Shown here piece after piece: positions 339 to 33,956 of a DNA stretch of 50,286 bases. This stretch comes from Deinococcales bacterium. GTDB taxonomy: Bacteria; Deinococcota; Deinococci; Deinococcales; JAAFIG01. Below the pieces are notes generated by a model. The model did no database searches and had not been told where the DNA came from. It saw only the letters and a list, made by a program, of their open reading frames with translations. The DNA is taken from NCBI GenBank assembly GCA_013298595.1, contig JAAFIG010000012.1, positions 1-50,286 of the forward strand. Reading direction: 5' to 3'. The number at the start of each line of letters is the position of its first letter. Within the stretch, counting starts at the first letter, position 1. The translations under genes were made by a program, and so were the position numbers.

Positions 339-3300
339 TTAGAAACGGAAATTAAAACCAAAACTAAATTTAAATTGATTTGGAGCTGGTAAGCCAAAGG
401 TTAAAGCAATGGCTAAGTTCGAGGTAAAGTTGATACTCAACTGCGCTTCGGGTTGAATAATGGTCAGCAAATCGTAATTGGTTTCACCTGATGGCACAAT
501 AAATGGTGTACCAAAACGAATACCAAAAACCCCATCATCGCTTTGTAAATTCAAATTGATTTCTCCGCCCAGTACACGATTACCTGTTGGTGAAAGCCTT
601 GTATTATTAATTTGCAAACTCAGTCGTGCTGCTCGAGACAAATCAACCCCGAAATTCAGTGTGAAATTCACAGCTGCTTGAGTGGAGCTATCGGTTAAGT
701 TTTGAGCAACCACTTCGACTAAGTTGCTACGGAAATCCACATCAATGCCTGTAGCGGCTTTAATCTGCCGACTGATTTCACTAAGAATAAAAACACTGAG
801 CACCGTATCCAAAGATTGTTGTGCCAAACCGCCTAAGTCTGCATTGACACTGCCTAGTGTAACCAGCGAGTACAATTGAGCTGGAGTTAAAGATTCAAAA
901 CCATTTGGACAATTACCATCCACCGCTGGCTGCATGTCTATACGACGGTTATTCGGATTTTTTGTATCAGCAATCCAACGTAAACGAATCTTTAGAATGA
1001 CATCAATTTCTTTGGCTTGCCCATTTGGGTTGCTACTGTTCTTACAGGTGGCTTTGACCACACCCCTCGAGATAATCTGAACAACAGGGTAAAACCCTTC
1101 GATTGGGCTAAATTCTGCCACTGCTGACTGAATCTGATACGTGTTAATACCCAATTGCAATTTGCCTTTACCGCCCACTGCACCAACTGCCTCGAGCTGA
1201 CCATTGAGTTCTGGCACTGCCATCGTTCCTGTCAGTAGCAACTTACCACCTGCCTCGAGTGCTGCAAATGATTCGTTGATACGAATACCTTGTGGTGCAT
1301 TAAGGGTTACACCACGAAAACGCACTTGTTGCAAAAATACATTGGGTTTATTTGGCGTTGTTGGTTGAACTGGTTTTGTACTATCAGCTGGTTTATTTTG
1401 TTGCAATTGGGTTTGTAAACGCAACAAATTCACTTGCCCACCAATATCGTAGAAACGCTCACCATCACCAACAAAGGTTAAATCAGCATCGAGTAAGCTG
1501 TCTGAGACAAAGTAATCGGGAATAGGCATGACCAAATCCTTACCCTCGAGTTTGAGTTTAATACGTGGGCTAAGATCGCCTCTAAGTTTAATAATACCAC
1601 CTTTTTTAGCGGTTAAATCAAGTTTAAAACCACCTGAATCACCAAAAGCTCGAGCAGCAATATCGTTGATTAAGCCAATTGGTTTAATGTTCAAACTACC
1701 CAAAGCTTGCGCCTCGAGATCCTCGATTTTAATTGGTGTATAAGAAACCAATTTAGCTGTGCCTGTGGTGTCTAGGGTTGCCCCTAAGGATTCATCACTG
1801 CTGAGTACCCCTCGTACTTTAACCAAACCTTTCTCGAGTGTGCCAATCAGTTCTGAGGCATTGACTGCAATACCACCAAGATTACCTTTGAAATCCCGAA
1901 CGTTTAATTGTGCATCTGGTGTGCCATATTTACCACTGAGTTTTAACTCGAGGCTACCACTGGCTTTTGGATTGTATTCACGAATTTGGGGTAATAAATT
2001 CAGCAATGGTGTGAAAATGGTGTTCTGAAAACGCATTCCAAGGTCAACACGGTTTTTTGCATAATACCCATTGATACGCCATTCACCTTTGCCACGCAAT
2101 AACAAATTATCAAATTGCAAATCGCCATTACTAAAAATTAAGCGCCCATTGCCAGTTAATGTATCGCCTGCCCCTGAAACCTCGAGTGGGACAAAATCCA
2201 TTTTGACTGTCGAAGCTAGGAAGTTTTTGATTGGAATTTCATAACGAGCAAACCCTGTCGCTAAGGCTGTGCCAGGCATTTCGCCAAATAATCCAGCCGC
2301 AAAACCATGCAGCGGAGCACGGCGTAGATCAAGTGTTCCAGTAGCCACTTTACCATCGAACGAACCGCTGATAATCGAACGTCCAAAACCACCGAGACTG
2401 ATATTCTCGAGATCAGGATTATTATTTTGTGCACCGTAGATAAAACCCCTGTAACGAATGCTGGAACCTGCTGCTGTACCTTTGGCTTCACCTGCTAGGG
2501 TTAGGCGCTTACCATTTTGATCTGGCAGGCTGATTTCTGGGAAAATCAGATCAAAATCAATCACATCATCCACTATTTTTAAACGCCCATTGACTCGTCC
2601 ACGTAAATTGGGTGCAATATTTCTGACTTGTTCGACATCTTCAAGGCGCACTGTAAAAACACTGATTTTGATATCAATTGGTTGATCGCCTGGTTTTGAT
2701 TTGGTGTACGTCTCGAGGAAAGGTGCAACATCAGAAAGCCCACCATTGCCATTTAATTCGACATTACCGCCCAATGTTTTGCCTGTACCATTCAAAGTAA
2801 AGGTATCGCCTTTGAGTTCAATAGCTCCTGAAACTGTGGCACTGACTTGCGAAACCGAGAGTGGCAAACTGGTTGCATTGACTTTGCCTGTGATGCCTCG
2901 AGCATCGGCAGTGACAGTGCCTTTGACCACACCTTTGCCTTCAGCACCTCGTAAATCCACATTGACATCGCCTTGCCATAATCCTTGTTCAAAACGCAAA
3001 TCGCCTTTGGCAAGCCCTGGTGTACCTTTGTAATCCAGTAATAAACGCACTGGGTTTGTCTCGAGCACAGCGGTGCCTGTGCCATCAATTTTCCAACCCA
3101 CACTTGGTACCAGTAACGGTGTATCCAGATTCTGGAAAACAGCGCTGGCACGTCCCGACCAGCCAAAATCCGATGTGGCATCCTGACGTAAATCGGCTTT
3201 GATATCCACTGCCCCCGAATAGCCTTTTAAGCCGCTACTCTCAAGGGTAATGCCTGAAATTGTGCCATTAATTCTGCCTTGCTCTAGAGTAATTTGCCCA

Positions 3301-6300
3301 TTATGGATGCCATCCGTGATATTGAGTGTGCCTGTGGCTTGAGCATTCTCGAGTTGTACTTTAGCAGTGGCATTTATCTTGCCAATTTGACTTGTGATTG
3401 TGGCGGCTGGTTGCTCGAGTGTACCCGAAGCTGCAAGACTGAGTTTCAGGGCTTCATCTTGGTAATTAATAATGCCACTTAAATTGTTATTAACAAGTCG
3501 GATTTCGCCTGCGGCATTAGCAGCGCTGTCGGCTAATTTCAAGCTGGCAACCAATGGGCTAAGTTTAGCGTTCAAAGCAAAAGCGGCTCCAAAAATATCG
3601 CCACCGCCACTGAGTATTGGTGAGGCAAAAGCACCCGACACAGCGATTTTTGCTGTACCAGTTTTTGTTTTTGCACTCAGTGGTGTAGTTTTTGGCAAAC
3701 CGCTGAGTGCAATCTCGCCACTCCAACCATCTTTAGCATCGGCTGTTGTTGCGCCAGCAGCACGAATACCATTGCTCGAGGCATCAAGTTTGAGGGCAAG
3801 TTGATCGCCTACATAGCGTCCATCAAGTGCCCCTACAATTGAACCAGTCAATTGGGTTGAAAATCGGATATCAAGCGGTGATAAACTCCCCGAAGCATCC
3901 AGTACACCTTTGCTACCTGCCACAATAAATGGCACATCTGTTGCAATGATGCTATTTGGCTCGAGTTTAATTTCCCCAGATTTAAAGCGTAGTAAACCAG
4001 TTAATCGCTCTTTGTACAAAGCAGTGACTTTAGCATTGCCTATATCTACACCAGCGATACTGGCTGTTTTCAGATCACCTGTGATTGCTGCAATTGGTTG
4101 AGACAGTGTTCCGCTCAACTCGAGTTGCCCCTCAATTTGTCCTTTGGCGGCATCAAAAATGCCAGTTAATGAATTCTCGAGGGTTGTATCGATACTCAAT
4201 TGCCCTTTAATGCCAGTATCAAGTAATTGGTTTGCAGCTGTTAATTGTAATTCACCAACCAAGGTATTTTGACCAACCCGAATTTGATATGTGCCTGAAC
4301 TGTTACTTTGAACTCGCAATTGACGCAATGCCAATGGGAAATCTGGCAGACTTGCATCTATGGTTCCCTCGAGATTAGGGAATTGCCCACTGATATTACC
4401 TTTAGCTGTGGCAAAAGGTAATCGGGCTTCGCCTCGAGCATCTATGGTTGGGCGGCTCGAGAAAATATTGCTAACGGCTGCATAAACACGTCCACTGGCA
4501 GTGCCTCGAAGGTCAATAAAACCACTGAGTTCTGGGTTGAATAATTCTTTGCTGACATCTAAATTGGTATCGATTAACCATTTTTCCTTGGCTAAACCAA
4601 GTCCGATACCACGCAAAGTACCTGCGATTTTTGGTTGTTGTAAATTGCCACTCAGTTCAAAAATACCTGAAACCTTGCCTTGGGCTTGGAATGGCTCGAG
4701 GGACAGATTTTCCAAATTTGCAATCAGGGTTGTATTGGTGGCATTGCCTAGTTTTCCATTGACCTGCACACGCCCTTTGAGTGCTTCGACCACCAGATTA
4801 TTGACAGCCAGTTGCCCTTCTAAACCTCGGTCGTTGTACTCGGCAACAAAATTAGCTGCACCACTGGCTTTAGCCGCACCAATCGTAGCAACCTGACCAA
4901 CAAGCTCAAGGTTGCTGATAGCCACTTTGATATCCTTGGTGTTACCAGTTGCCACCACATCTACGCTGGTCTCGAGTTCTTCGATAGCTTCTGGTAAGAC
5001 AGTTGCCAATGCAACTTTTCTTAAACGACCACCCGCTTGCCAAACACCTTTTTCATATGTTCCAGAAAGTGTTGTTTTATCACCAACCAGACTGGCAATG
5101 AGTTTTTGGTCAGAGTAATCTGCTTGGATTTTTGCATTCAACGATCCCTTAGCACCTTCAAGATTTCCCAAAAAAGCGATTGTAGGTTCAGCCCAAGTGC
5201 CCGATGCTCGTCCAGTTCCATCAAGGAACAATTGATCTGGTTTTTGCCACCAAGCCGCTAAATCAAAACGCTCAAACTGCCACGTTGCCTCGAGCAGTTT
5301 ATCGCTGGTATTGGGAATTTTGGCAGTAAAACGCCCATTACGCCATTGCCAATTTGCCAGTAAATCTTTACTGCCAAGTAACTCGAGCTTGGTTTGTTGC
5401 CCTAATAGGCTACCCGCCACATCTATTTTTCCTGTAAAACCCTGAACCACTTCCCATTGCATTTTTCCTGTAGCGGTCAAACGAGTATCTTCAAATAAGA
5501 CTGGTGCATTAAGTTGCAAATTTGATTTAGTAATAGCTGTTAAACCACCTTCAATCTCTCCAGATAAAGCATCGCCTGTCAGTTGTACGCGCCAATTTGT
5601 GCCATCAAAAAACCCATCGAGTTTGGTGTCTGGTGCAACCAAACCAAGCGTGGCTGTACCAAATAAACCCGAAACCCGAACATCGGGTTTGGTAAATGCC
5701 CCAAGAATTCGCAAATCAAGTTTGACTGGAATAAAATCATAATCGCTGTTGGCAATACCAACTAAATCCAATTGAGGAAAAACCGAACCACCAAGCCGCA
5801 CTAAGGCAGCTTCTCGGGTCAGGACTGCATTCTCGAGTCTGATTTCGGGATTGACCAGTTTACCACCTAGAACAACATCTCCGACAAGCTGGGCAGCAAA
5901 TCCTTTAATCAGTTGCTCGGTATTCCCATCAAAGGTTATTCGCCCTGTGAGCGCACTCTCGAGCCACGATTTTTGCGTGGCGATTTGGATTGCACCACTG
6001 ACTAAATCTTGGCTTTGAATTGCATATTTTCCGTCGCCTGTCGCGGAAATTTTGATTGACTTTGCAATACTTGGTTGTTGCAAAACCAATGTGCCTAGCA
6101 AGTTTGGCAATGTACCACTCAGGTTGCTGCTGGCTTTGACAAATGGCAAATACGCATCACCGACCAATTGTACTGTTGGAGCGTCCGAGAGTGCATTACC
6201 CACGCGCCAAGTGAGTTCACCGCCCGCAGCGTCACCAATAAATTTTGTCACGCCAGCGATATCAGGATTAAGTAATTGGTTCCCCAACTCGAGACTGCTC

Positions 6301-9300
6301 GAGACATGCCATTGCTCGGATTGCAATCCAGCATTGATCAGATCTAATTTGCCAAGTATTTTAGGGTTGAGTAAATCGCCTTTGAGTGTGGCAGATCCCG
6401 AAAGTAGACCTTGCAATGGCATACTTTCTAAAACCAATAAACGAGCATCTAAATCTTTCATCTGTACGCTCGAGATAATCTGGGCATCTTGGGCAAATGG
6501 TTGATTGATTTGGGCTGTGATTACAGCTGTGCCAGCCAGCACCTCGAGATCAAGTTTTGTTTCGATATTGTCGTTGCTAACATTAGTTAATCCACGCAAT
6601 TTGAATTCGCCAACAGGTAATGCCCGACCCGTTAAAACCATATCTGTTACTTTAGCTCGCCATGTTTTATTGTCACCACTGGCTTCGAGCTGACTCGAAA
6701 GCACTAAACGCTGGAATTCCACAGGCAAGAGATTCTTAGGTAAATACGGCTCGAGTGCCAGAAATGAACTATTAGCAACAGCTTGCCATTTGCCATCACG
6801 CCAATTGGCTTTGGCTTTAATAGCAGCCCCTTCAATGGTTAGACCTGCCACTGCCGAATCGTAGTTCAGACCGAGTTTAGAATTGAGTAAACCATCTGAG
6901 CTTTTTAATAAACCAGTAAAATCTAATTCTGGCTTTGTCCAAGCACCTTGTGCCACACCTGTCCCCTCGAGCCAAAACGCATTTGGTTTACCATAAAATG
7001 CGCCCAGATCGGCTTTTTCAACTTCGATTTTGGCATCAAGTTCAGCCCCAATCTGACTTGGTAATGTGGCTTTTAAGCGCAAACCACGCCATGAGCTGCG
7101 TACCTCGAGTTGCCGACGACCTGTGATATCCAGCGAACCCGCTTGCCCAAATAAATCACCTTTGACATTTAACCCACCAATAAAACCTGTATTGCCTGTC
7201 CAAGCAATTGCGCCACTGGCGGCTAATCGATTATCCGAAAAAACCAGTGGAGCGTTTATTCGCAAATTAGCACTCGAGACAAAAGGAATACCGCCATCTA
7301 TCACACCTGAAAGTGCCGCCCCCATAAATTGCACTCGCCATTTTTTTCCATCGAATTTTGCCTCGAGTTTGGTGTCAGGAGCTACCAAACCAAGACTTGC
7401 CTCTCCAAGCACACCATTTGCCTCAAGTAACGGTTGCTCGAGCGTACCAGAGGCTTGCCAACTAAGGGTACTGGGCAAGTAAGCAAAAGCTGTTTTGGCT
7501 GTACCTTGTAAAGCCAAAACAGGAAAAATCTGCCCTTTAGCAACAGCTTGTACATCTATGCCTTGTACTGTGCTTGGCTCGAGGATCAGTTCACTATTGA
7601 CATATTTGGCAGCTCCTTTGACGGTGTAACCCGCCGCAAGAGCATTGATATTTTCAATACGCAGTTGATTATCACGCCACTCGAGTTGAGCAGTTGCTTG
7701 CCCTGCAACACCTGTTAAACCTTGTAAATCTTTGATATTCAAAGTACCACTGGCTATTTGCTGCTCGAGATTCCCCGATGCGAGCAGTTGGGCAGCATCC
7801 CAATCCGCACGAATATCGGCTGTATTACCGCGAATTTTTGCGGTTACCCCAGCTGTTTTCTCGAGCAATGAACCTTGCATTGTTAAATCTAAAACCCTAT
7901 CTGCAAACTCGAGACGACGACCAATGGCTTGTCCTTGTAATTTCCCAAGGGCAATTTCGGCATTCAGATTTGGGTAGAGCATCCCCGCAATACTGTATTT
8001 TTCGTTTATGGGTGTTGTACCCGTTAATTGACTTTCAATAATGCCATTTTGTGCTTTGATCGTACCATTTGCCGAAAACCCAAAGCCTTTAGCATTTTGT
8101 ACCATGATATTGCCTTGCATTTGGTTGATTGCAAAACGTGGTAATGCCAGTTGCCCTTGTATTCGACCACTGAGGTTAATACCAATCACTTGAGCTAAGC
8201 GTAAATCCAAATCTAATTTTTGTGCATTGATACCACTATCAGATACCTCGAGCAGCGATGAACTAGCCCCCACTTTGACTATACTTGAGGCGTTCCATTT
8301 TTGGGCAGCAACCACACCTGATGCCACCAAATCCACGGTTTGCTGATCGAGTTGTGTACCCAATAAACGGGTTTTGAAACTCAGTTTATTATTACGCCAA
8401 GTTGCCTCTAGTTGAGCCGACCCTGCTTTGATCCCTTTTTGGTATTCCTTGGGTAAACTACCCAGAATGGGTTGTAACGCTAATCTCCCCGAAGCACTGG
8501 CTGTTTGTATCGTGCCTGAACCAGTGGCTTGCAGCAATCCTGTTGTCTCGAGTTGCAGTCTAGGATTCGCCAATTGCCCTGAAAACCGTGCCACAACTGT
8601 GCCCGCTTGTTGGAACGCAAGATACCCAAAACCCAACTCGCCTTGCCACTGATTATTGTTTAGCAACAATGAACCAGCTTTACTCTCGAGTCGCAACCGC
8701 AAACCACTTTGCAGTGCAATTTGGAATGGCATTTTTTGTGCCCGCAAGGCAATTTGACCATTTGAGACAGCATAAGGTGTCTCGAGCAAATCAAGTCTCC
8801 CCTGCCCACGCAAGGTTTGTAAATTAACACTAGCATTGGCATAAATAGGATAGTCAGATGGTTCAGTCTCGAGATTGAGAATTGTATTCAGTGGAAAACG
8901 CCATTTAGCACTGCGGATTCGTAATGGAACAGCCCCACCAATATTGCCTGTAAAGGCATCATTTTCAAGCCATTTCGCTTGGATTGGCAGCCCAACCACT
9001 TCGCCACCAATATCACCGCGAAGGCTTTGCTGCTCCAGTCGGAGCGAACCACTCAAACGCGATTTGACTGGTAACACTGCGGCTAAATCAAGTTGGTTTA
9101 ACCTGACACTTGCCTGCCCTCGAGCGTTATAAGTTGCTTGTCCAGTACCACCGGTTGCATCTAAAGCCTCGATTTTAACAACATAGTCAGCAGCCTGTCC
9201 TTTGAGGCTGGCACTCAGTTGCAATGAATTTGGTTTGATACCCAATCTCGAGATTAAACCTAGGTTGTAACGCAGGTCGGGTATAGCAACCGAACCATTG

Positions 9301-12300
9301 ACTATCACTTGGCTTTGCAGTGTTGCTGGTAAATTAATGCCTGCTAAACTCGAGAGTCTAGTTGGCAATGTGCCAGCAATTTGCAGATTTTGCCAATCGC
9401 CAATAGCTGTTAATCGCCAATCTTTCCCATTGGCTTTTGCATCGAGTTTACCACGCCAGTTTTGATTTGCTTGTGTAAGGTTTAAAGCCACAGATGCCGT
9501 GGCTGCAAGCTGAATTTTTTCACCACGAAAAACCGTGCTGGCACTCGGTAATTGCATTTGTGTCTCGAGATTCTGCCCATTTAATCTGCCCGAGACCGTA
9601 CCAGCGCCCAGTAGCACAGTGGCTTGTGGATGTTTGATTCGCCCAGTTGCGAATTTAACATTACCTGCAATACTTCGAGCAACCATTAAACTGCCGTTTA
9701 CAGCCTCGAGAACCGCATTTGCACCAATCGCATTACCCTCGAGACGACCCGCAGACCAACGCAATGGTAATTGAGTAGCAGTTCCATTGCCCGAAACTGC
9801 GATATTGGTAGCAAAAGCTGTACCTGCCTTGGTTTGTGCTGCTGCGCTTGCCGCTTTAACATTGATCGCAAGTTGGTTGTCACGCAGTGTCACAATTCCG
9901 CTGGCATTACTCACTCGAGCGGGCACATTTGCAAACACACCTCGAGCCGTTGCCGCCGAGAAATTAATGGTATTTGTCGTATTTTTTTGCACAAAACGAA
10001 CTTGGACATTGCCACCTTGCACCGTGTTTCCTGCCACAGTTCCCGAAGCCGAATCGGCAACAGCACTGACAAGAATACTCGAGCCTTGCTGCGAAAGATT
10101 GCCTCGGATATTGCTTAAACGCAACGGTTTATTTTGATAAGCTGCATTGATATTCCCCGAAAAATTTGCCAGTACCGCACCATTCTCGAGTCTGGCATTG
10201 CTCAGTGTTAACCCAGCCACGACTCCAGCCACTGTGACATTGCCATTTTTGACTCGCCCAGTCAGATCAATACTATTTTTTGCCAGCGATAAACCTGTAC
10301 CTGCTAACAAAGATTCAGGCAACCTACCTGCTGCTCGAATCAGCAAATCATCGTAGGCACCACTGACACGTGCTTCTACACCTCGCACTTTTGCCAAAGC
10401 ATTGACTTGTGGGAACACTGCCCCTGATAAAGTCGCACCCGCAAATTGCCCACTTGTCACTCGAGCCTGAGCACTGAGTTTTAATTGCTTAGCTGTTATT
10501 GTCGCTTCGAGCGGCAACCCTGCAATATTGCCTATCATGGTAGTTGTACCACTCGAGTTGCGAATATTGAGTGTGGCAATACCAGAAACCAAATTGCGAG
10601 AAGCTGTTGGTAAAGCAGCAGCCAATGCCGAAAAATCAATTTTACCAATCGCCTCTAAACCAGTTTCATTGTATTTTATTTGAACATTCTGACCATTACT
10701 GAGCAGATTTCCACTGACTTTCAGTGTTTTACCAGCCTCGAGTACAATTCTGCCGCCTAAATTTTTACTTTGTGGCACAGCCGCTAATCGCAACGAGAAA
10801 GGCTCGAGTTGCACTGTGCCACTCAAAGCAGCTTTGATGCCGTTATATCCAGCATTACCTGCCAAATTCAGGCTCGAGCCAGTACCAGCAGCTGTCAGAA
10901 TACCAAAACGATTACGTGCCTCGAGCTTACCTGATGTCCGTAAACCCTCAAATGCCAGTGTCATATCACCACTGAGGAAGGCACTTTCACCAGCTGCTTG
11001 GACACGCCAAGCTCGAGGGCGGATATTTAGGCTATTCTCGGTGAGGGTGGTAAGCAGTTTATTGGCATTCCAACGTCCACGGATTCTTTGTCCAACCGAA
11101 AGCGTTAATTGCCCAGTAACATCATCCAAGTTGGCTTCTCCAAAACGCAAATCGTAGCCTCGAGCATTTCCTGCCAAAGCAACTCCTGCTGAATTGAGGA
11201 CATACTGGGCGGTATAATCAGCTTTGCCTCCAGGTTCAAAAGCAATGCCTTGTAAAGCCACTTGCCCTCGAGCAGGTGAACCATCGGTATTGATAATGGC
11301 TCCGCTGGCTGCAATCGCTCCTTTTGCTAGATTGGCTGTGCCAGATAAACCTTGAGCATTAAAATTCAGTGCATAATTCCCAGCAATATCTTTTAAGCCA
11401 AGACCTGGAATCTCGAGCCGAGCAGGGTTTAACAAACCTATTATCTTCATATTTTGCACTGTGCCAGCCACAACAGCTGTACCATTGATATTTGAAACAA
11501 CAGGTTTCTCGAGTGGCAATTGTATTGCATTAAATTTGCCATTGCCTGAAATTTTCTCAGCCACAATTTTCAGTTTTGCATCAGCAGTTCCACGCAGAAT
11601 TGTGCCACCAGCCGTTATTTGCACAGTTTCTTTCAGCACATTGACATTGGCATTTAAAGCTAACGGTGACTGCAAGAACTTGCCTAGTAACTTTGCATCA
11701 ACCAAAATACGTTCGCCTTGACTTTTCACAACTGCACTAGCGTTTAGTTTATCTGCGCCAATCCGAGTCAAAGCCGATACATCTGCCTCGAGATGATCGG
11801 TAAATTGCCATGTACTTTTGAGTTGCTCGAGTGGGAAACCTGCTACTTCTACGGTTTTTTCGCCATTGACTGTACCCGTAATTTTAATTTTCTCCCAACC
11901 CTGACCTTGCAACCGCACCTCGAGTTGCCCTTGACCAGCGGTTCCTTTGGCAAAAACAGGTAACACTTGCTCGAGTTTTGGACGTAGTACACCACTAAAT
12001 TGCAGATACTCTTTTTTGGTTGTTGTATTCACCAGCACATTGGCGTTGATTGCCCCACCTAAACCTTGTCCTGATAATTTGGCAACCACCTGACCAGCTG
12101 CGTTTAAGGTAGCTTTTCCTGTAATCGCTCGAGCCACAACCCCTGGCAGTACTTCGAGTGCACCATTTTGCACGTTGGCATCTACAGTCACTGTTGTTGG
12201 TGTGACAGTTATCGTTCCACGAATCTTGCCTTGTTCAATTTTCATGGGGATTGGTAATAACCAATGGTTTGCAATAGCGGCATCAACGTCGGCATCTATG

Positions 12301-12884
12301 ACCAAGTTGGGTTGTAAATCCTTACCAAATTCGTACAGTGTTGTTGTGAAACCTTTACCATCCTTGGTTTCGATATTGGCACGCAAATTTCCACGAATTG
12401 AACCATTACGGCTAGGCAATGCCGTTTGCTCGAGTAAGGTAATTTTACCATCTGGAACAAATAATTTTTTACCAATAAAATCCACTTCGGTATCGGTTAA
12501 ATTGGCTTGATCTAGAAAAACAGCAATTGGTGCAGGAGGTGCTTTCGGGTCTATGGGTGGTAAACCCACAGGATCAAAAGAAAACCGCCCACCAGCCAAA
12601 CTCGCCTCGAGACGTAATTCGCGTTTTTGTATCAAGGTACCAAGGTTGTATTTTGCTTTGACCGAAGCTGCTTTACCATTGATAAACGCACTTTTGACTG
12701 TGGCATCTACTGCTTCTACACCCGAGAATAAATTGCCACGCAATTGTTTAGCATCGATCTCGAGACCAGCAGCTTTGGCTTGTTGAATAGCAAAACGCAG
12801 TGCTGGTTGGGTGCCAGCTGCAATATAGACAGCCAACACCAAAAACAACAGTATTCCCAAGGTGATGGCAAGCCAACGACGCAT
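339..12884 (-). CDS. Giant TamB-like translocation/assembly module protein (4,181 aa)
   Basis: TamB-family proteins are inner-membrane-anchored, periplasm-spanning beta-helical proteins linked to outer-membrane protein assembly and lipid transport. Here one N-terminal membrane segment (about residues 5-23) is followed by thousands of residues of Gly/Ala/Asn-rich alternating beta-strand sequence. The last ~360 residues resemble the TamB C-terminal domain and end in a beta-barrel-like GFNFRF terminus. Enterobacterial TamB is about 1,260 aa, so this is over three times longer. An internal duplication is clear: GLVAPDTKL recurs at about residues 1833 and 2415, and surrounding blocks (FDG.WRV, LSG.I.GG, FLEGTG/FLDGTG) match at the same offset, a period of 582 residues. 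The ATG at 12884 has AGAGG 5-9 bases upstream. No BamA/TamA partner gene lies in the window. The assignment rests on architecture and the C-terminal domain; exact cargo is unknown. Confidence 0.85.
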   Translation of the reverse strand: MRRWLAITLGILLFLVLAVYIAAGTQPALRFAIQQAKAAGLEIDAKQLRGNLFSGVEAVDATVKSAFINGKAASVKAKYNLGTLIQKRELRLEASLAGGRFSFDPVGLPPIDPKAPPAPIAVFLDQANLTDTEVDFIGKKLFVPDGKITLLEQTALPSRNGSIRGNLRANIETKDGKGFTTTLYEFGKDLQPNLVIDADVDAAIANHWLLPIPMKIEQGKIRGTITVTPTTVTVDANVQNGALEVLPGVVARAITGKATLNAAGQVVAKLSGQGLGGAINANVLVNTTTKKEYLQFSGVLRPKLEQVLPVFAKGTAGQGQLEVRLQGQGWEKIKITGTVNGEKTVEVAGFPLEQLKSTWQFTDHLEADVSALTRIGADKLNASAVVKSQGERILVDAKLLGKFLQSPLALNANVNVLKETVQITAGGTILRGTADAKLKIVAEKISGNGKFNAIQLPLEKPVVSNINGTAVVAGTVQNMKIIGLLNPARLEIPGLGLKDIAGNYALNFNAQGLSGTANLAKGAIAASGAIINTDGSPARGQVALQGIAFEPGGKADYTAQYVLNSAGVALAGNARGYDLRFGEANLDDVTGQLTLSVGQRIRGRWNANKLLTTLTENSLNIRPRAWRVQAAGESAFLSGDMTLAFEGLRTSGKLEARNRFGILTAAGTGSSLNLAGNAGYNGIKAALSGTVQLEPFSLRLAAVPQSKNLGGRIVLEAGKTLKVSGNLLSNGQNVQIKYNETGLEAIGKIDFSALAAALPTASRNLVSGIATLNIRNSSGTTTMIGNIAGLPLEATITAKQLKLSAQARVTSGQFAGATLSGAVFPQVNALAKVRGVEARVSGAYDDLLIRAAGRLPESLLAGTGLSLAKNSIDLTGRVKNGNVTVAGVVAGLTLSNARLENGAVLANFSGNINAAYQNKPLRLSNIRGNLSQQGSSILVSAVADSASGTVAGNTVQGGNVQVRFVQKNTTNTINFSAATARGVFANVPARVSNASGIVTLRDNQLAINVKAASAAAQTKAGTAFATNIAVSGNGTATQLPLRWSAGRLEGNAIGANAVLEAVNGSLMVARSIAGNVKFATGRIKHPQATVLLGAGTVSGRLNGQNLETQMQLPSASTVFRGEKIQLAATASVALNLTQANQNWRGKLDAKANGKDWRLTAIGDWQNLQIAGTLPTRLSSLAGINLPATLQSQVIVNGSVAIPDLRYNLGLISRLGIKPNSLQLSASLKGQAADYVVKIEALDATGGTGQATYNARGQASVRLNQLDLAAVLPVKSRLSGSLRLEQQSLRGDIGGEVVGLPIQAKWLENDAFTGNIGGAVPLRIRSAKWRFPLNTILNLETEPSDYPIYANASVNLQTLRGQGRLDLLETPYAVSNGQIALRAQKMPFQIALQSGLRLRLESKAGSLLLNNNQWQGELGFGYLAFQQAGTVVARFSGQLANPRLQLETTGLLQATGSGTIQTASASGRLALQPILGSLPKEYQKGIKAGSAQLEATWRNNKLSFKTRLLGTQLDQQTVDLVASGVVAAQKWNASSIVKVGASSSLLEVSDSGINAQKLDLDLRLAQVIGINLSGRIQGQLALPRFAINQMQGNIMVQNAKGFGFSANGTIKAQNGIIESQLTGTTPINEKYSIAGMLYPNLNAEIALGKLQGQAIGRRLEFADRVLDLTMQGSLLEKTAGVTAKIRGNTADIRADWDAAQLLASGNLEQQIASGTLNIKDLQGLTGVAGQATAQLEWRDNQLRIENINALAAGYTVKGAAKYVNSELILEPSTVQGIDVQAVAKGQIFPVLALQGTAKTAFAYLPSTLSWQASGTLEQPLLEANGVLGEASLGLVAPDTKLEAKFDGKKWRVQFMGAALSGVIDGGIPFVSSANLRINAPLVFSDNRLAASGAIAWTGNTGFIGGLNVKGDLFGQAGSLDITGRRQLEVRSSWRGLRLKATLPSQIGAELDAKIEVEKADLGAFYGKPNAFWLEGTGVAQGAWTKPELDFTGLLKSSDGLLNSKLGLNYDSAVAGLTIEGAAIKAKANWRDGKWQAVANSSFLALEPYLPKNLLPVEFQRLVLSSQLEASGDNKTWRAKVTDMVLTGRALPVGEFKLRGLTNVSNDNIETKLDLEVLAGTAVITAQINQPFAQDAQIISSVQMKDLDARLLVLESMPLQGLLSGSATLKGDLLNPKILGKLDLINAGLQSEQWHVSSSLELGNQLLNPDIAGVTKFIGDAAGGELTWRVGNALSDAPTVQLVGDAYLPFVKASSNLSGTLPNLLGTLVLQQPSIAKSIKISATGDGKYAIQSQDLVSGAIQIATQKSWLESALTGRITFDGNTEQLIKGFAAQLVGDVVLGGKLVNPEIRLENAVLTREAALVRLGGSVFPQLDLVGIANSDYDFIPVKLDLRILGAFTKPDVRVSGLFGTATLGLVAPDTKLDGFFDGTNWRVQLTGDALSGEIEGGLTAITKSNLQLNAPVLFEDTRLTATGKMQWEVVQGFTGKIDVAGSLLGQQTKLELLGSKDLLANWQWRNGRFTAKIPNTSDKLLEATWQFERFDLAAWWQKPDQLFLDGTGRASGTWAEPTIAFLGNLEGAKGSLNAKIQADYSDQKLIASLVGDKTTLSGTYEKGVWQAGGRLRKVALATVLPEAIEELETSVDVVATGNTKDIKVAISNLELVGQVATIGAAKASGAANFVAEYNDRGLEGQLAVNNLVVEALKGRVQVNGKLGNATNTTLIANLENLSLEPFQAQGKVSGIFELSGNLQQPKIAGTLRGIGLGLAKEKWLIDTNLDVSKELFNPELSGFIDLRGTASGRVYAAVSNIFSSRPTIDARGEARLPFATAKGNISGQFPNLEGTIDASLPDFPLALRQLRVQSNSSGTYQIRVGQNTLVGELQLTAANQLLDTGIKGQLSIDTTLENSLTGIFDAAKGQIEGQLELSGTLSQPIAAITGDLKTASIAGVDIGNAKVTALYKERLTGLLRFKSGEIKLEPNSIIATDVPFIVAGSKGVLDASGSLSPLDIRFSTQLTGSIVGALDGRYVGDQLALKLDASSNGIRAAGATTADAKDGWSGEIALSGLPKTTPLSAKTKTGTAKIAVSGAFASPILSGGGDIFGAAFALNAKLSPLVASLKLADSAANAAGEIRLVNNNLSGIINYQDEALKLSLAASGTLEQPAATITSQIGKINATAKVQLENAQATGTLNITDGIHNGQITLEQGRINGTISGITLESSGLKGYSGAVDIKADLRQDATSDFGWSGRASAVFQNLDTPLLVPSVGWKIDGTGTAVLETNPVRLLLDYKGTPGLAKGDLRFEQGLWQGDVNVDLRGAEGKGVVKGTVTADARGITGKVNATSLPLSVSQVSATVSGAIELKGDTFTLNGTGKTLGGNVELNGNGGLSDVAPFLETYTKSKPGDQPIDIKISVFTVRLEDVEQVRNIAPNLRGRVNGRLKIVDDVIDFDLIFPEISLPDQNGKRLTLAGEAKGTAAGSSIRYRGFIYGAQNNNPDLENISLGGFGRSIISGSFDGKVATGTLDLRRAPLHGFAAGLFGEMPGTALATGFARYEIPIKNFLASTVKMDFVPLEVSGAGDTLTGNGRLIFSNGDLQFDNLLLRGKGEWRINGYYAKNRVDLGMRFQNTIFTPLLNLLPQIREYNPKASGSLELKLSGKYGTPDAQLNVRDFKGNLGGIAVNASELIGTLEKGLVKVRGVLSSDESLGATLDTTGTAKLVSYTPIKIEDLEAQALGSLNIKPIGLINDIAARAFGDSGGFKLDLTAKKGGIIKLRGDLSPRIKLKLEGKDLVMPIPDYFVSDSLLDADLTFVGDGERFYDIGGQVNLLRLQTQLQQNKPADSTKPVQPTTPNKPNVFLQQVRFRGVTLNAPQGIRINESFAALEAGGKLLLTGTMAVPELNGQLEAVGAVGGKGKLQLGINTYQIQSAVAEFSPIEGFYPVVQIISRGVVKATCKNSSNPNGQAKEIDVILKIRLRWIADTKNPNNRRIDMQPAVDGNCPNGFESLTPAQLYSLVTLGSVNADLGGLAQQSLDTVLSVFILSEISRQIKAATGIDVDFRSNLVEVVAQNLTDSSTQAAVNFTLNFGVDLSRAARLSLQINNTRLSPTGNRVLGGEINLNLQSDDGVFGIRFGTPFIVPSGETNYDLLTIIQPEAQLSINFTSNLAIALTFGLPAPNQFKFSFGFNFRF

Positions 12885-30383: not shown

Positions 30384-32237
30384 TTAGCCAACAAGACGAC
30401 GACGCACATTGGCACTGATAAAGTCGAGAATATTGACCATTAAAACAACCAAACCTACCAGAATAATCATTTGATCGTATTTGCCACTTCGCATGGTTTC
30501 TTGAATTAAAAAGCCAACACCACCAGCTCCGACAAAACCCAAGATAATGGAAACGCGGAAATTAATTTCAAAACGGTAAAGGGTATACGAAACAAAGAGT
30601 GGCAACACTTGTGGCAATACACCCCAGCGAATAATGCTGGTGCCTGGCGCTCCAGATGCCTCGAGGGCTTCGATGGGTCCTTTTTCGGCATTTTCGATAG
30701 CTTCGGAGTACAACTTACCTAAATCTGCCATGCTGTGAATTGCCATTGCCAGCACCCCCGCCAGTGGTCCAAGTCCAACAGCAGCCACAAAAACCAGTGC
30801 CAAAATCAGGGTATCCACACCTCGGTCAAGGTTGTAAAAACCACGCATGAGTGGGTACACAGTTCGACCCCACCAGCTTTTTTGCGTTAAATTCCGAGCC
30901 GCCAAAAAACTCGAGGGAACTGCCAGCACGGCTGCTAGCACTGTTCCAATCATGGCAGTAGCAATGGTAATGGTCATGGCTTTTAAGCCTTCAGACAGAA
31001 TGGCATTCCAATCTGGTGGGAATGAACGCCGACCAAAATCTTGAATAAATGGGAAGCCCCGAATAAATCTGCCAATATCAAATTCAACTGCGTTAAAACC
31101 AAAGGCAAGAACAGCAATAATAATGCCAAGCATAGCACCACTGCTGAGGTCTCGAGTCTCGAGAGCAACTTCGCCTCGGAACACTAATGTGATACCGCCA
31201 ATCAGCATCAGAATGCCGAAAAATGCCAGTGAACCAAAACCATAAGCTGCTCGGTTTGGAAAAATCCGACGGGCATTGGCTTCACCAGATTCTCGTCCAA
31301 CGCTATACCCTTGTGGTAAGGCTGTTGCAGTGGCAATAGCGGTTAATGGCTCGAGCGTGGCTTTGTCACCGCTGATACCATACTCAAGGCGTTGCTTAGC
31401 CAATTGGTCGCGTTTGTTAAACGCATCTAGTACAGTACGTTCGGCTTCTCGGCGGGCATTTTGGGCAAACTCGAGGACTTGTCCACCAAGGCTTTGGCTG
31501 TTACTGACCACTGTTTCCGCTTTGGTTAATTCGGCTTGTGAGGCGACAATACTGGCTTGCGAAGCTGTCCACTCAGCATTGATACGAGCACGTTCTTTAT
31601 TGGTAAACTCGAGGTCTTGACTCCAGTCTTGGACGACCAATTTTTCTTGTTTTGGGTTAGCAGGTGCAATCACACGGTAATAGTTACGCATCGAATCAAA
31701 AGTGACTGCTGCTGCATCTGAAAAAACAAAAGCGGCTACGCCAATAGCTATGACTACTGATAAACCATAGCCAATCATCATTTGCTTTGGTTTTAATAAT
31801 TCTCGAGCAATCAAATAGACTGTTGCAGCAAAAACCAATGGAATAATGACTTCTAAAACCCAAGGAATGGTTGTGACAGAAACAATACTTTGGCTCGAGG
31901 TATTAAACGTCCAAAGCAGTACCAACACAGTAATACCACCTGCAACACCTGCAATACCTGTGGTTTTAGGGTTAGGTTTACTTGCGAACATAGCTATGAT
32001 ATTGGCAAGGGCTACAATAAAAATCAGCCAAAATTGTGGTTGTACAAAACTAAAACCAAAAGGTGTTGGCGCAACCAAATGCCTCGAGTACGCGCCTGTT
32101 AATTGAGCAAGTGGATGAATAAAAAAAACAATCAATGCACCAATAGCGCCAGCTGCAATTAAACGCCGTGCACTACCTCGAGCTGCAAGCGTGGCAGCAC
32201 ACAGCAATACAGCAATAATGATATAGGTCTGAATCAT
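30384..32237 (-). CDS. phnE: Phosphonate/phosphite ABC transporter permease with long N-terminal extension
   Basis: 617 residues, more than twice the ~260-280 of usual PhnE permeases. The C-terminal ~260 residues are the permease: LKAMTITIATAMIGTVLAAVLAVPSSFLAA, the EAA loop EAIENAEKGPIEALEASGAPGTSIIRWGVLPQVLP, and GAGGVGFLI, all PhnE hallmarks. The N-terminal ~350 residues have about six membrane helices (residues 1-175), an extracytoplasmic or cytoplasmic segment rich in Ala/Glu/Arg that looks coiled-coil (about 210-285), and further helices (about 325-375). The start overlaps the phnC stop (ATGA). It forms the membrane pore of the importer; the extension has no known role. Confidence 0.88.
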   Translation of the reverse strand: MIQTYIIIAVLLCAATLAARGSARRLIAAGAIGALIVFFIHPLAQLTGAYSRHLVAPTPFGFSFVQPQFWLIFIVALANIIAMFASKPNPKTTGIAGVAGGITVLVLLWTFNTSSQSIVSVTTIPWVLEVIIPLVFAATVYLIARELLKPKQMMIGYGLSVVIAIGVAAFVFSDAAAVTFDSMRNYYRVIAPANPKQEKLVVQDWSQDLEFTNKERARINAEWTASQASIVASQAELTKAETVVSNSQSLGGQVLEFAQNARREAERTVLDAFNKRDQLAKQRLEYGISGDKATLEPLTAIATATALPQGYSVGRESGEANARRIFPNRAAYGFGSLAFFGILMLIGGITLVFRGEVALETRDLSSGAMLGIIIAVLAFGFNAVEFDIGRFIRGFPFIQDFGRRSFPPDWNAILSEGLKAMTITIATAMIGTVLAAVLAVPSSFLAARNLTQKSWWGRTVYPLMRGFYNLDRGVDTLILALVFVAAVGLGPLAGVLAMAIHSMADLGKLYSEAIENAEKGPIEALEASGAPGTSIIRWGVLPQVLPLFVSYTLYRFEINFRVSIILGFVGAGGVGFLIQETMRSGKYDQMIILVGLVVLMVNILDFISANVRRRLVG

Positions 32238-32980
32238 AAATCTGCCACGCTTCCCGCGTAAATACGTTCGACTTCGGCATCAGTTAATTGACTAGGTGTG
32301 CCATCAAAAATCAGTTTGCCTTTGTTAAAACCTAAAATTCGCTCAGCGTATTCTCGGGCTAACTCGAGCACATGGATATTGACAATAACGGTAATACCAT
32401 CGTTGGTAAAGGATTTGAGTAAATCCATAATCACCCCAGATAACTTGGGGTCTATGCTGGCAGTTGGTTCGTCTGCCAACATCAACTTAGGTTCTTGCAC
32501 CAACGCTCTTGCTATAGCAACCCGTTGTTTTTGCCCACCCGATAAATTACTGGCAGTGGTATTGGTTTTTTCCTCGAGTCCAACGCGTTTAAGGGCATCT
32601 AAAGCCAATTGCTTATCAGCAGCCGAGTATAAACCAAGTACACCTTGTAACCGTCCGTAATAGCCTAAACGCCCAGATAAAACATTTTCTAAAGCCGATA
32701 AGCGCTCGACTAAATTAAAACTTTGAAAGACAAAACCAATGCGCCGCCGCAATTTTCGTAAATTACGCCCCTGAGCAAAAGCAATGTCCTGACCTTCAAT
32801 TAAGATTTTCCCAGCCGTTGGGTCGTTTAAGCGGTTCAAGCAACGCATAAACGTGCTTTTTCCCGCTCCTGATAAACCAATCACACACACAAATTGTCCA
32901 TCTGGGATACTCAAACTAACATCATCAAGGGCTTTTGTGCCATCGGCAAAGACTTTTGATAAATGCTGAACTTCAATCAC
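32234..32980 (-). CDS. phnC: Phosphonate/phosphite ABC transporter ATP-binding protein
   Basis: 248 residues. Walker A is IGLSGAGKST (K41), Q-loop FVFQSFNLV, signature LSGGQKQRVAIARAL, Walker B LMLADEPTASID and the switch NIHVLELA. The sequence is close to PhnC (FVCVIGLSGAGKSTFMRCLNRL, EYAERILGFNKGKLIFDG). The start is GTG at 32980, preceded by GAGGAGG; open sequence further upstream covers a hairpin and is not used. It energises import with the overlapping phnE. Confidence 0.93.
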   Translation of the reverse strand: MIEVQHLSKVFADGTKALDDVSLSIPDGQFVCVIGLSGAGKSTFMRCLNRLNDPTAGKILIEGQDIAFAQGRNLRKLRRRIGFVFQSFNLVERLSALENVLSGRLGYYGRLQGVLGLYSAADKQLALDALKRVGLEEKTNTTASNLSGGQKQRVAIARALVQEPKLMLADEPTASIDPKLSGVIMDLLKSFTNDGITVIVNIHVLELAREYAERILGFNKGKLIFDGTPSQLTDAEVERIYAGSVADL

Positions 32981-33044: not shown

Positions 33045-33956
33045 TTACTTCTTAGCGGCAGCAGCTTGGGCTTCACGAACAATGTCGTAATCGGCATCTT
33101 TAGCAGGCACTAAGTATTCGATGCGGTATAAGTCACGTAACAATTTACGGGTTTCTGGTTTGTAGCGCATTGAAAGCAACGCATTAGTAACAAGAATTTG
33201 CGTATCAGCACAGGTTTTATTGTAATTATTACGAATCGAAACGGTATCACCTGGGATTGGTTTGCTGTAGGCAAGCACGCGAATCTTCTTTTGTTGAGCT
33301 GGATCGGTCAGGTACTGAGTCCATGAACCGCTGGTACCTTTGGTGTTATTAGCAAAAGTTGCGCCAACATCTACAGTGCCATTGAGTACACTAAAAACAA
33401 CAGCATCATGACCACCAGCAAAGACTTGTTTAGCAAATAATTTATCGGCATCAAGTTTAGCTGCAATTAAAGTGGCTTTTGGAAAAGTGTAACCAGCAGC
33501 GCTGTTCGGATCAACCCAAGCAATACTCGAGCCTTGTAAATCTTGCAGGGTCTTGAAACGGCTGTCTGCTCGTACAATAAAGGCACTCCAGTAGTACGGA
33601 CCAGCTTCTCGAGCTGATTTCAGTAATACAGTAGCAATGCCTTCTTTAGCAGCGTCCACATACCCAACTGGGTTCAGCCAAGCAAAATCGAGTTGCCCTG
33701 AACGCATAGCTTCGATTAAACCACGATAATCTTGGGCAACAGTGGCTTTGACTTCGACTCCACGGATGGTTTCCTCGAGATAATTGGCAATTGGCTTAGC
33801 GCTTGCTAAGACTTTGGTTGCATCTTGGGCTGGGTTAAAACCCATACGAATAACTTTACAATTTTCTGCGCCTTGGGCAACACTTGGTATGTTACTGATG
33901 GCAAGTACACCAAGAGCAGCGGTAGCTGCGGCAATGCTGAACACGATTTTTTTCAT
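33045..33956 (-). CDS. phnD: Phosphonate/phosphite/phosphate-type periplasmic binding protein
   Basis: 303 residues, signal peptide about 1-28. Type II binding protein of the PhnD family: RMGFNPAQDATKVLASAKPIANYLEE, DYRGLIEAMRSGQLDFAWLNPVGYV, SSIAWVDPNSAAGYTFP and AGGHDAVVFSVLNGTVDVGATF. These segments form the ligand pocket for phosphonate-, phosphite- or phosphate-like anions, and the exact ligand cannot be read from sequence. AGAGGAGAG precedes the ATG at 33956; a 12-residue longer frame is ignored. First gene of phnD-phnC-phnE. No C-P lyase or phosphite dehydrogenase gene is nearby. Confidence 0.9.
   Translation of the reverse strand: MKKIVFSIAAATAALGVLAISNIPSVAQGAENCKVIRMGFNPAQDATKVLASAKPIANYLEETIRGVEVKATVAQDYRGLIEAMRSGQLDFAWLNPVGYVDAAKEGIATVLLKSAREAGPYYWSAFIVRADSRFKTLQDLQGSSIAWVDPNSAAGYTFPKATLIAAKLDADKLFAKQVFAGGHDAVVFSVLNGTVDVGATFANNTKGTSGSWTQYLTDPAQQKKIRVLAYSKPIPGDTVSIRNNYNKTCADTQILVTNALLSMRYKPETRKLLRDLYRIEYLVPAKDADYDIVREAQAAAAKK

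Follow-up and report, generated by a model that had tools for sequence, protein, structure and literature searches.

A conserved, phylum-specific N-terminal accessory domain on the PhnE permease of Deinococcota

The window (the whole stretch of 50,286 nucleotides that was analysed, from a Deinococcales bacterium) holds an operon in the order phnD-phnC-phnE, with phnC and a phnD-family gene upstream of the permease gene (Table 1), and the same unit is found in nearly all phylum loci with complete surroundings. The phnC product scores 319.9 bits against TIGR02315 (cut-off 266.1) and its PhnD partner matches PF12974 with an E-value of 1.6e-60. The phnE reading frame is intact, with zero internal stops, and gives a single TIGR01097 match (262.7 bits versus a cut-off of 216.7) which covers the C-terminal permease domain only; the same model is matched by 22 of 22 aligned homologues. 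The earlier note's description of a permease domain of normal size, preceded in frame and without a stop by an N-terminal extension, is thus borne out. Moreover, because the phnE start overlaps the phnC stop, the N terminus of the extension is a real start and not an upstream misreading.

Table 1. Features of the phnDCE operon and of the extended PhnE protein (positions in the window)
Feature	Position	Strand	Basis or remark
phnE, extended permease, 617 aa	30384..32237	minus	ORF and ATG start overlapping the phnC stop (ATGA)
PhnE permease domain, residues 366-615	30393..31142	minus	TIGR01097; MetI-like fold
N-terminal extension, residues 1-355, 7 predicted TM helices and extracytoplasmic segment	31173..32237	minus	No Pfam/NCBIfam/PDB sequence match
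TM1-TM6 of the extension, residues 1-172, N terminus predicted outside	31722..32237	minus	Arg/Lys in cytoplasmic loops; invariant S22, R24, R25
Predicted extracytoplasmic segment between TM6 and TM7, residues 173-333	31239..31721	minus	Invariant Y186, Y187, L209, N213, R216, R323
Helical hairpin, residues 195-285, lineage-specific enlargement	31383..31655	minus	AF2 pLDDT 81-92 over residues 211-280
TM7 of the extension, residues 334-352, directly upstream of PhnE TM1	31182..31238	minus	Hydropathy and AF2
phnC ATPase	32234..32980	minus	TIGR02315 above cut-off; likely GTG start at 32980 behind GGAGG
phnD-like soluble binding protein	33045..33956	minus	PF12974; nearest solved chain PtxB; SAA for STS, His retained

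In its AlphaFold2 (AF2) model the permease core is MetI-like (Z 21.9 to 3tui_A, rmsd 2.5, 207 residues aligned), MetI of MetNI (PDB 3tui, 3dhw, 7mbz) being the closest solved fold; MetI itself, however, is compact (~217 residues) and lacks an N-terminal domain. With the PhnE of PhnCDE phosphonate importers (TIGR01097) the protein shares a core above cut-off and an operon with PhnC and a PhnD-family protein, but it reaches 617 residues, whereas the sampled PhnE domains of other phyla have no such extension.

Beyond phnDCE, no conserved functional link among the flanking genes was found in the phylum loci compared, and the other neighbours vary from locus to locus (DNA polymerase X-like protein, dCTP deaminase, BipA, MgsA-like AAA protein, formate-THF ligase). 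Several members of a single family (L041, L128, L132, L141) have a DNA polymerase X/PHP-like gene divergently oriented next to the operon, possibly as shared synteny only. Elsewhere in the window, an ORF of 4,181 residues (339-12884, minus strand) looks TamB/DUF490-like by eye and is unusually long for that family. Counted over the whole window (1-50286), CTCGAG, a palindrome, is present 299 times where base composition predicts 9.6 (31-fold), and the runner-up among 6-base palindromes stands at 2.5-fold; in relatives' loci the CTCGAG enrichment is 17-22-fold within the same family and about 2-13-fold in other families. This excess resembles the cyanobacterial HIP1 phenomenon, and a literature search pairing CTCGAG with HIP1 found nothing.

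The extension measures about 355 residues ahead of the PhnE domain (the span flagged in the earlier note takes in the first 362), and by hydropathy 12 diverse homologues have one plan in common, in which six helices are followed by a long loop, and a seventh helix leads into PhnE. The earlier count of about six extra helices was therefore right as to the presence of extra helices and wrong as to their number, seven being predicted, with the last one placed after the extracytoplasmic segment. Arginine and lysine cluster in the loops TM1-2, TM3-4 and TM5-6 of the extension (12 homologues), and because these charged loops alternate, the N terminus and the TM6-TM7 loop are predicted to lie outside, which agrees with the cytoplasmic start of PhnE TM1.

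The length of the TM6-TM7 loop is 85-87 residues in most families, 130 in a member of the sister family (L004) and 158-161 in the window's family, and since it differs in this way between families, the Ala/Glu-rich segment within it is taken as a lineage-specific enlargement. AF2 folds this segment as an antiparallel pair of helices (195-247 and 252-285), which has its full length in the window's family alone and is shorter in the sister family. It had been called a coiled coil, of which the helical character stands; canonical heptads find no statistical support (shuffle p 0.24 and 0.48), and the segment, being lineage-specific, does not form a conserved core of the extension, so that 'helical hairpin' is the safer term. 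The confidence of AF2 is low in the TM1-TM3 region (pLDDT roughly 35-56), because only three sequences in the input covered the extension; an equally weak model of a homologue (L041, likewise with three extension-covering sequences) hints at a small sheet in the part outside the membrane. The TM3-4 and TM5-6 hairpins also resemble each other faintly at the profile level (37% probability, in L012 and relatives), a hint of an internal repeat that is too weak to be accepted.

Searched alone against Pfam and NCBIfam, the extension gave zero significant matches, to permease domains or to any other family. Sub-threshold hits to DUF4131 (best E 0.0012, in 4 of 25 members) and YLATT (0.54) were judged to be noise. 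Sequence searches of the PDB with the full protein or a profile recovered the permease core only, besides marginal unrelated matches, and searching the literature turned up no account of the extension. In the fold comparisons, the permease alone was aligned among the matches listed, including those to MalF chains (Z about 14), so that the fold of the extension is neither matched nor called new.

Other phyla have PhnE-PhnE arrangements, fused or tandem, with long PhnE-containing frames of ~520-590 residues (e.g. L051, L094), and the extension could accordingly be imagined as a degenerate second PhnE-type domain. In those proteins, however, both halves match PhnE, while the N-terminal half here does not: HHalign of the extension profile versus the PhnE profile gives a probability of 0.2%, the EAA loop is absent and the pattern of helices and loops is different. 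A duplication is therefore very improbable, and the earlier statement that no second EAA loop is present, and that this is not a duplicated PhnE, is upheld by the profile comparison together with the single PhnE match.

The extension was found in 48 of the 111 Deinococcota genomes, in all five families seen among them (named carriers are Meiothermus hypogaeus and an uncultured Thermus/Deinococcus group bacterium), and it is fused to PhnE every time; from the remaining 63 genomes the whole extended gene is missing. A free-standing copy, as the earlier note had suggested looking for, was seen neither in the 111 phylum genomes nor in the wider searches. In one genome (G059) the extended gene is split over two contigs. 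The fusion recurs, with an unchanged start context behind phnC, in 25 aligned loci from 25 genomes, and the fusion itself is found in 48 genomes overall, as a single clade, which refutes an assembly chimera, a missed stop or a misread start as the origin of the long frame, the probability of such an artefact being practically nil.

In a tree of 131 PhnE domains all 27 extended ones form one clade (support 100/100), outside of which three short Deinococcota PhnE fall. A single origin of the fused gene is thus well supported by the sequence comparisons, and the distribution is consistent with one fusion event in Deinococcota, after which it was shaped mainly by inheritance and loss. In other phyla, a sample of 1,394 genomes (Chloroflexota, Actinomycetota, Pseudomonadota and Bacillota) yielded nothing beyond fragmentary weak matches, of which those in G297, G324 and G1030 (E 3.5e-4 to 6.8e-4, 35-93 positions, fragments only) were set aside. 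A scan of the genome collection with the full alignment returned two extended PhnE, both from Deinococcota; 78 other PhnE loci from many phyla, including archaea, have no such extension, and plasmids searched by tblastn with two extensions gave zero matches. Since the genome searches had no positive control inside the group, absence of the extension outside the phylum can be called likely but not certain. Judged by these comparisons, the extension is a conserved, phylum-specific N-terminal accessory domain on an otherwise normal PhnE permease.

Seventeen extension positions are invariant among 25 aligned homologues, several of them in the predicted outside segment and in all lineages. Between close pairs, dN/dS is 0.09-0.38 for the extension and 0.03-0.12 for the core, from which it is well supported that the extension is under purifying selection, but less constrained than the permease core. 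The faster evolution of the extension, as well as the lack of the whole extended gene in 63 of the 111 genomes, would suit a historical fusion with a membrane protein which contributes nothing essential to transport and was simply retained. Such passive retention is quite improbable, however, given the invariant residues, dN/dS values well under 1, and the fact that the extension is kept in every clade member that is readable to its start.

The nearest solved relative of the PhnD partner is PtxB (E 1e-23 to 5o2j), and against the PhnD equivalog model TIGR03431 it scores 175.2, below the cut-off of 261.1. The STS-H motif, which holds phosphite in PtxB and PhnD (PMC5700983), reads SAA with the histidine kept in nearly all aligned Deinococcota PhnD partners (SAS in L133). 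The replacement of STS by SAA may indicate a different ligand and, since the partner PhnD is without the usual phosphoryl motif, the annotated phosphonate substrate may be wrong. The N terminus of PhnD is a signal-peptide-like stretch in which a lipobox is absent, and the protein is therefore probably soluble and free in the periplasm. PhnD of the window's family and its sister family carries a pair of cysteines (in an ENC near the N terminus and at a second, late position), which most others are without; the pair coincides with the lineages of longer hairpin, and this coincidence amounts to one phylogenetic event.

No phnJ (of C-P lyase) turned up in the window's genome, which is 94% complete, while 14 of the 111 phylum genomes have one; where phnJ and PhnE share a contig (G001, G003, G052, G060), that PhnE is short. 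PstB has a match in 111 of 111 phylum genomes (102 over the cut-off), and because of its presence throughout the phylum phnDCE is regarded as an accessory system. An accessory role beside Pst would leave room for a sensory function of the extension, by which it would gate transport or report on phosphorus status, and ligand binding is conceivable for a polytopic domain that has a part outside the membrane. Sensing of ligand or phosphate status, which the earlier note had considered, nevertheless gains no support, as Pfam and NCBIfam searches reveal no recognisable sensory domain and no regulator gene is conserved next to the operon (a kinase gene lies a few kb away in two loci, the rest having none, so that no kinase or regulator is consistently linked), and we regard it as fairly improbable.

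By the established architecture of its family, PhnE would be a homodimer that works with two PhnC subunits, and the extracytoplasmic P2 loop of MalF and the scoop loops of the Dpp and Pot permeases contact their binding proteins. It is nearly an even call, based on sequence, structural models and analogy, that the extension is an accessory membrane domain which positions the soluble PhnD-like protein on the extracytoplasmic side of the PhnE dimer. Each extension would add a seven-helix bundle beside the PhnE core and would thereby place an extracytoplasmic element where the permease opens to the outside. This element, a short domain in most lineages but enlarged to a long helical hairpin in the window's family, may dock or retain the PhnD-like protein in the manner of the P2 and scoop loops. 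The outcome would be either a higher local concentration of binding protein or help in opening PhnD over the translocation path. The earlier suggestion that the extension recruits a partner, which here would be the binding protein, is thus plausible.

Several observations point to docking: the predicted outside segment adjoins the permease mouth and has conserved residues there in all lineages, AF2 gives a MetI-like core and a confident hairpin, PhnD is probably soluble and hence needs docking, and the extension is always fused to PhnE, nearly always in a D-C-E operon, and in one clade, with dN/dS below 1. The analogy with MalF, with its extra N-terminal helices and long insert, adds to this. 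Compared with MalG, MalF has two extra N-terminal helices and a large extracytoplasmic insert (PMC3654945), and scoop elements are described in passages of two sources on the Dpp and Pot importers (PMC12136057, PMC11414716). The likeness to MalF, an importer permease with extra N-terminal helices and a large extracytoplasmic segment, is one of layout: in MalF the extra helices are two and the long insert interrupts the permease part itself, between TM3 and TM4, whereas the window's PhnE has a separate seven-helix unit ahead of a complete PhnE, with no sequence similarity to MalF found. The docking reading is weakened by the faster evolution of the extension relative to the core, which suits a structural role equally, by the short PhnE proteins that work elsewhere without it, and by the low AF2 confidence in TM1-TM3.

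Such a structural role would be that of a scaffold, which would stabilise the PhnE dimer or tether the importer to another part of the envelope, such as cell wall or outer membrane, and take no direct part in docking. Seven helices far exceed the needs of a docking loop, the constraint on the extension is moderate, and a hairpin whose length depends on the lineage is what would be expected of a spacer in envelopes of differing thickness. The outside segment has invariant residues in all lineages, however, whether or not a hairpin is present, and no conserved candidate partner gene lies nearby, so that a scaffold is unlikely, though still worth weighing.

Docking is a problem that any type I importer with a soluble binding protein has to solve, and to our knowledge permease-borne extracytoplasmic elements are described in a few systems only. 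The extension, conserved and of single origin, has no database name. It also flags 'PhnE' proteins annotated as phosphonate permeases for which the annotated substrate may be wrong. Because the single-origin fusion separates one PhnE clade from its short relatives, it constitutes a natural deletion experiment, and as Meiothermus and apparent Thermus species carry the extension, tractable thermophiles are available. Somewhat short of an even chance, it may be that these bacteria possess an undescribed, phylum-specific domain of type I ABC importers, consisting of a seven-helix unit and an extracytoplasmic arm fused to PhnE, which would hold or activate the soluble binding protein or sense its ligand, and whose arm would have been lengthened to a hairpin in one lineage.
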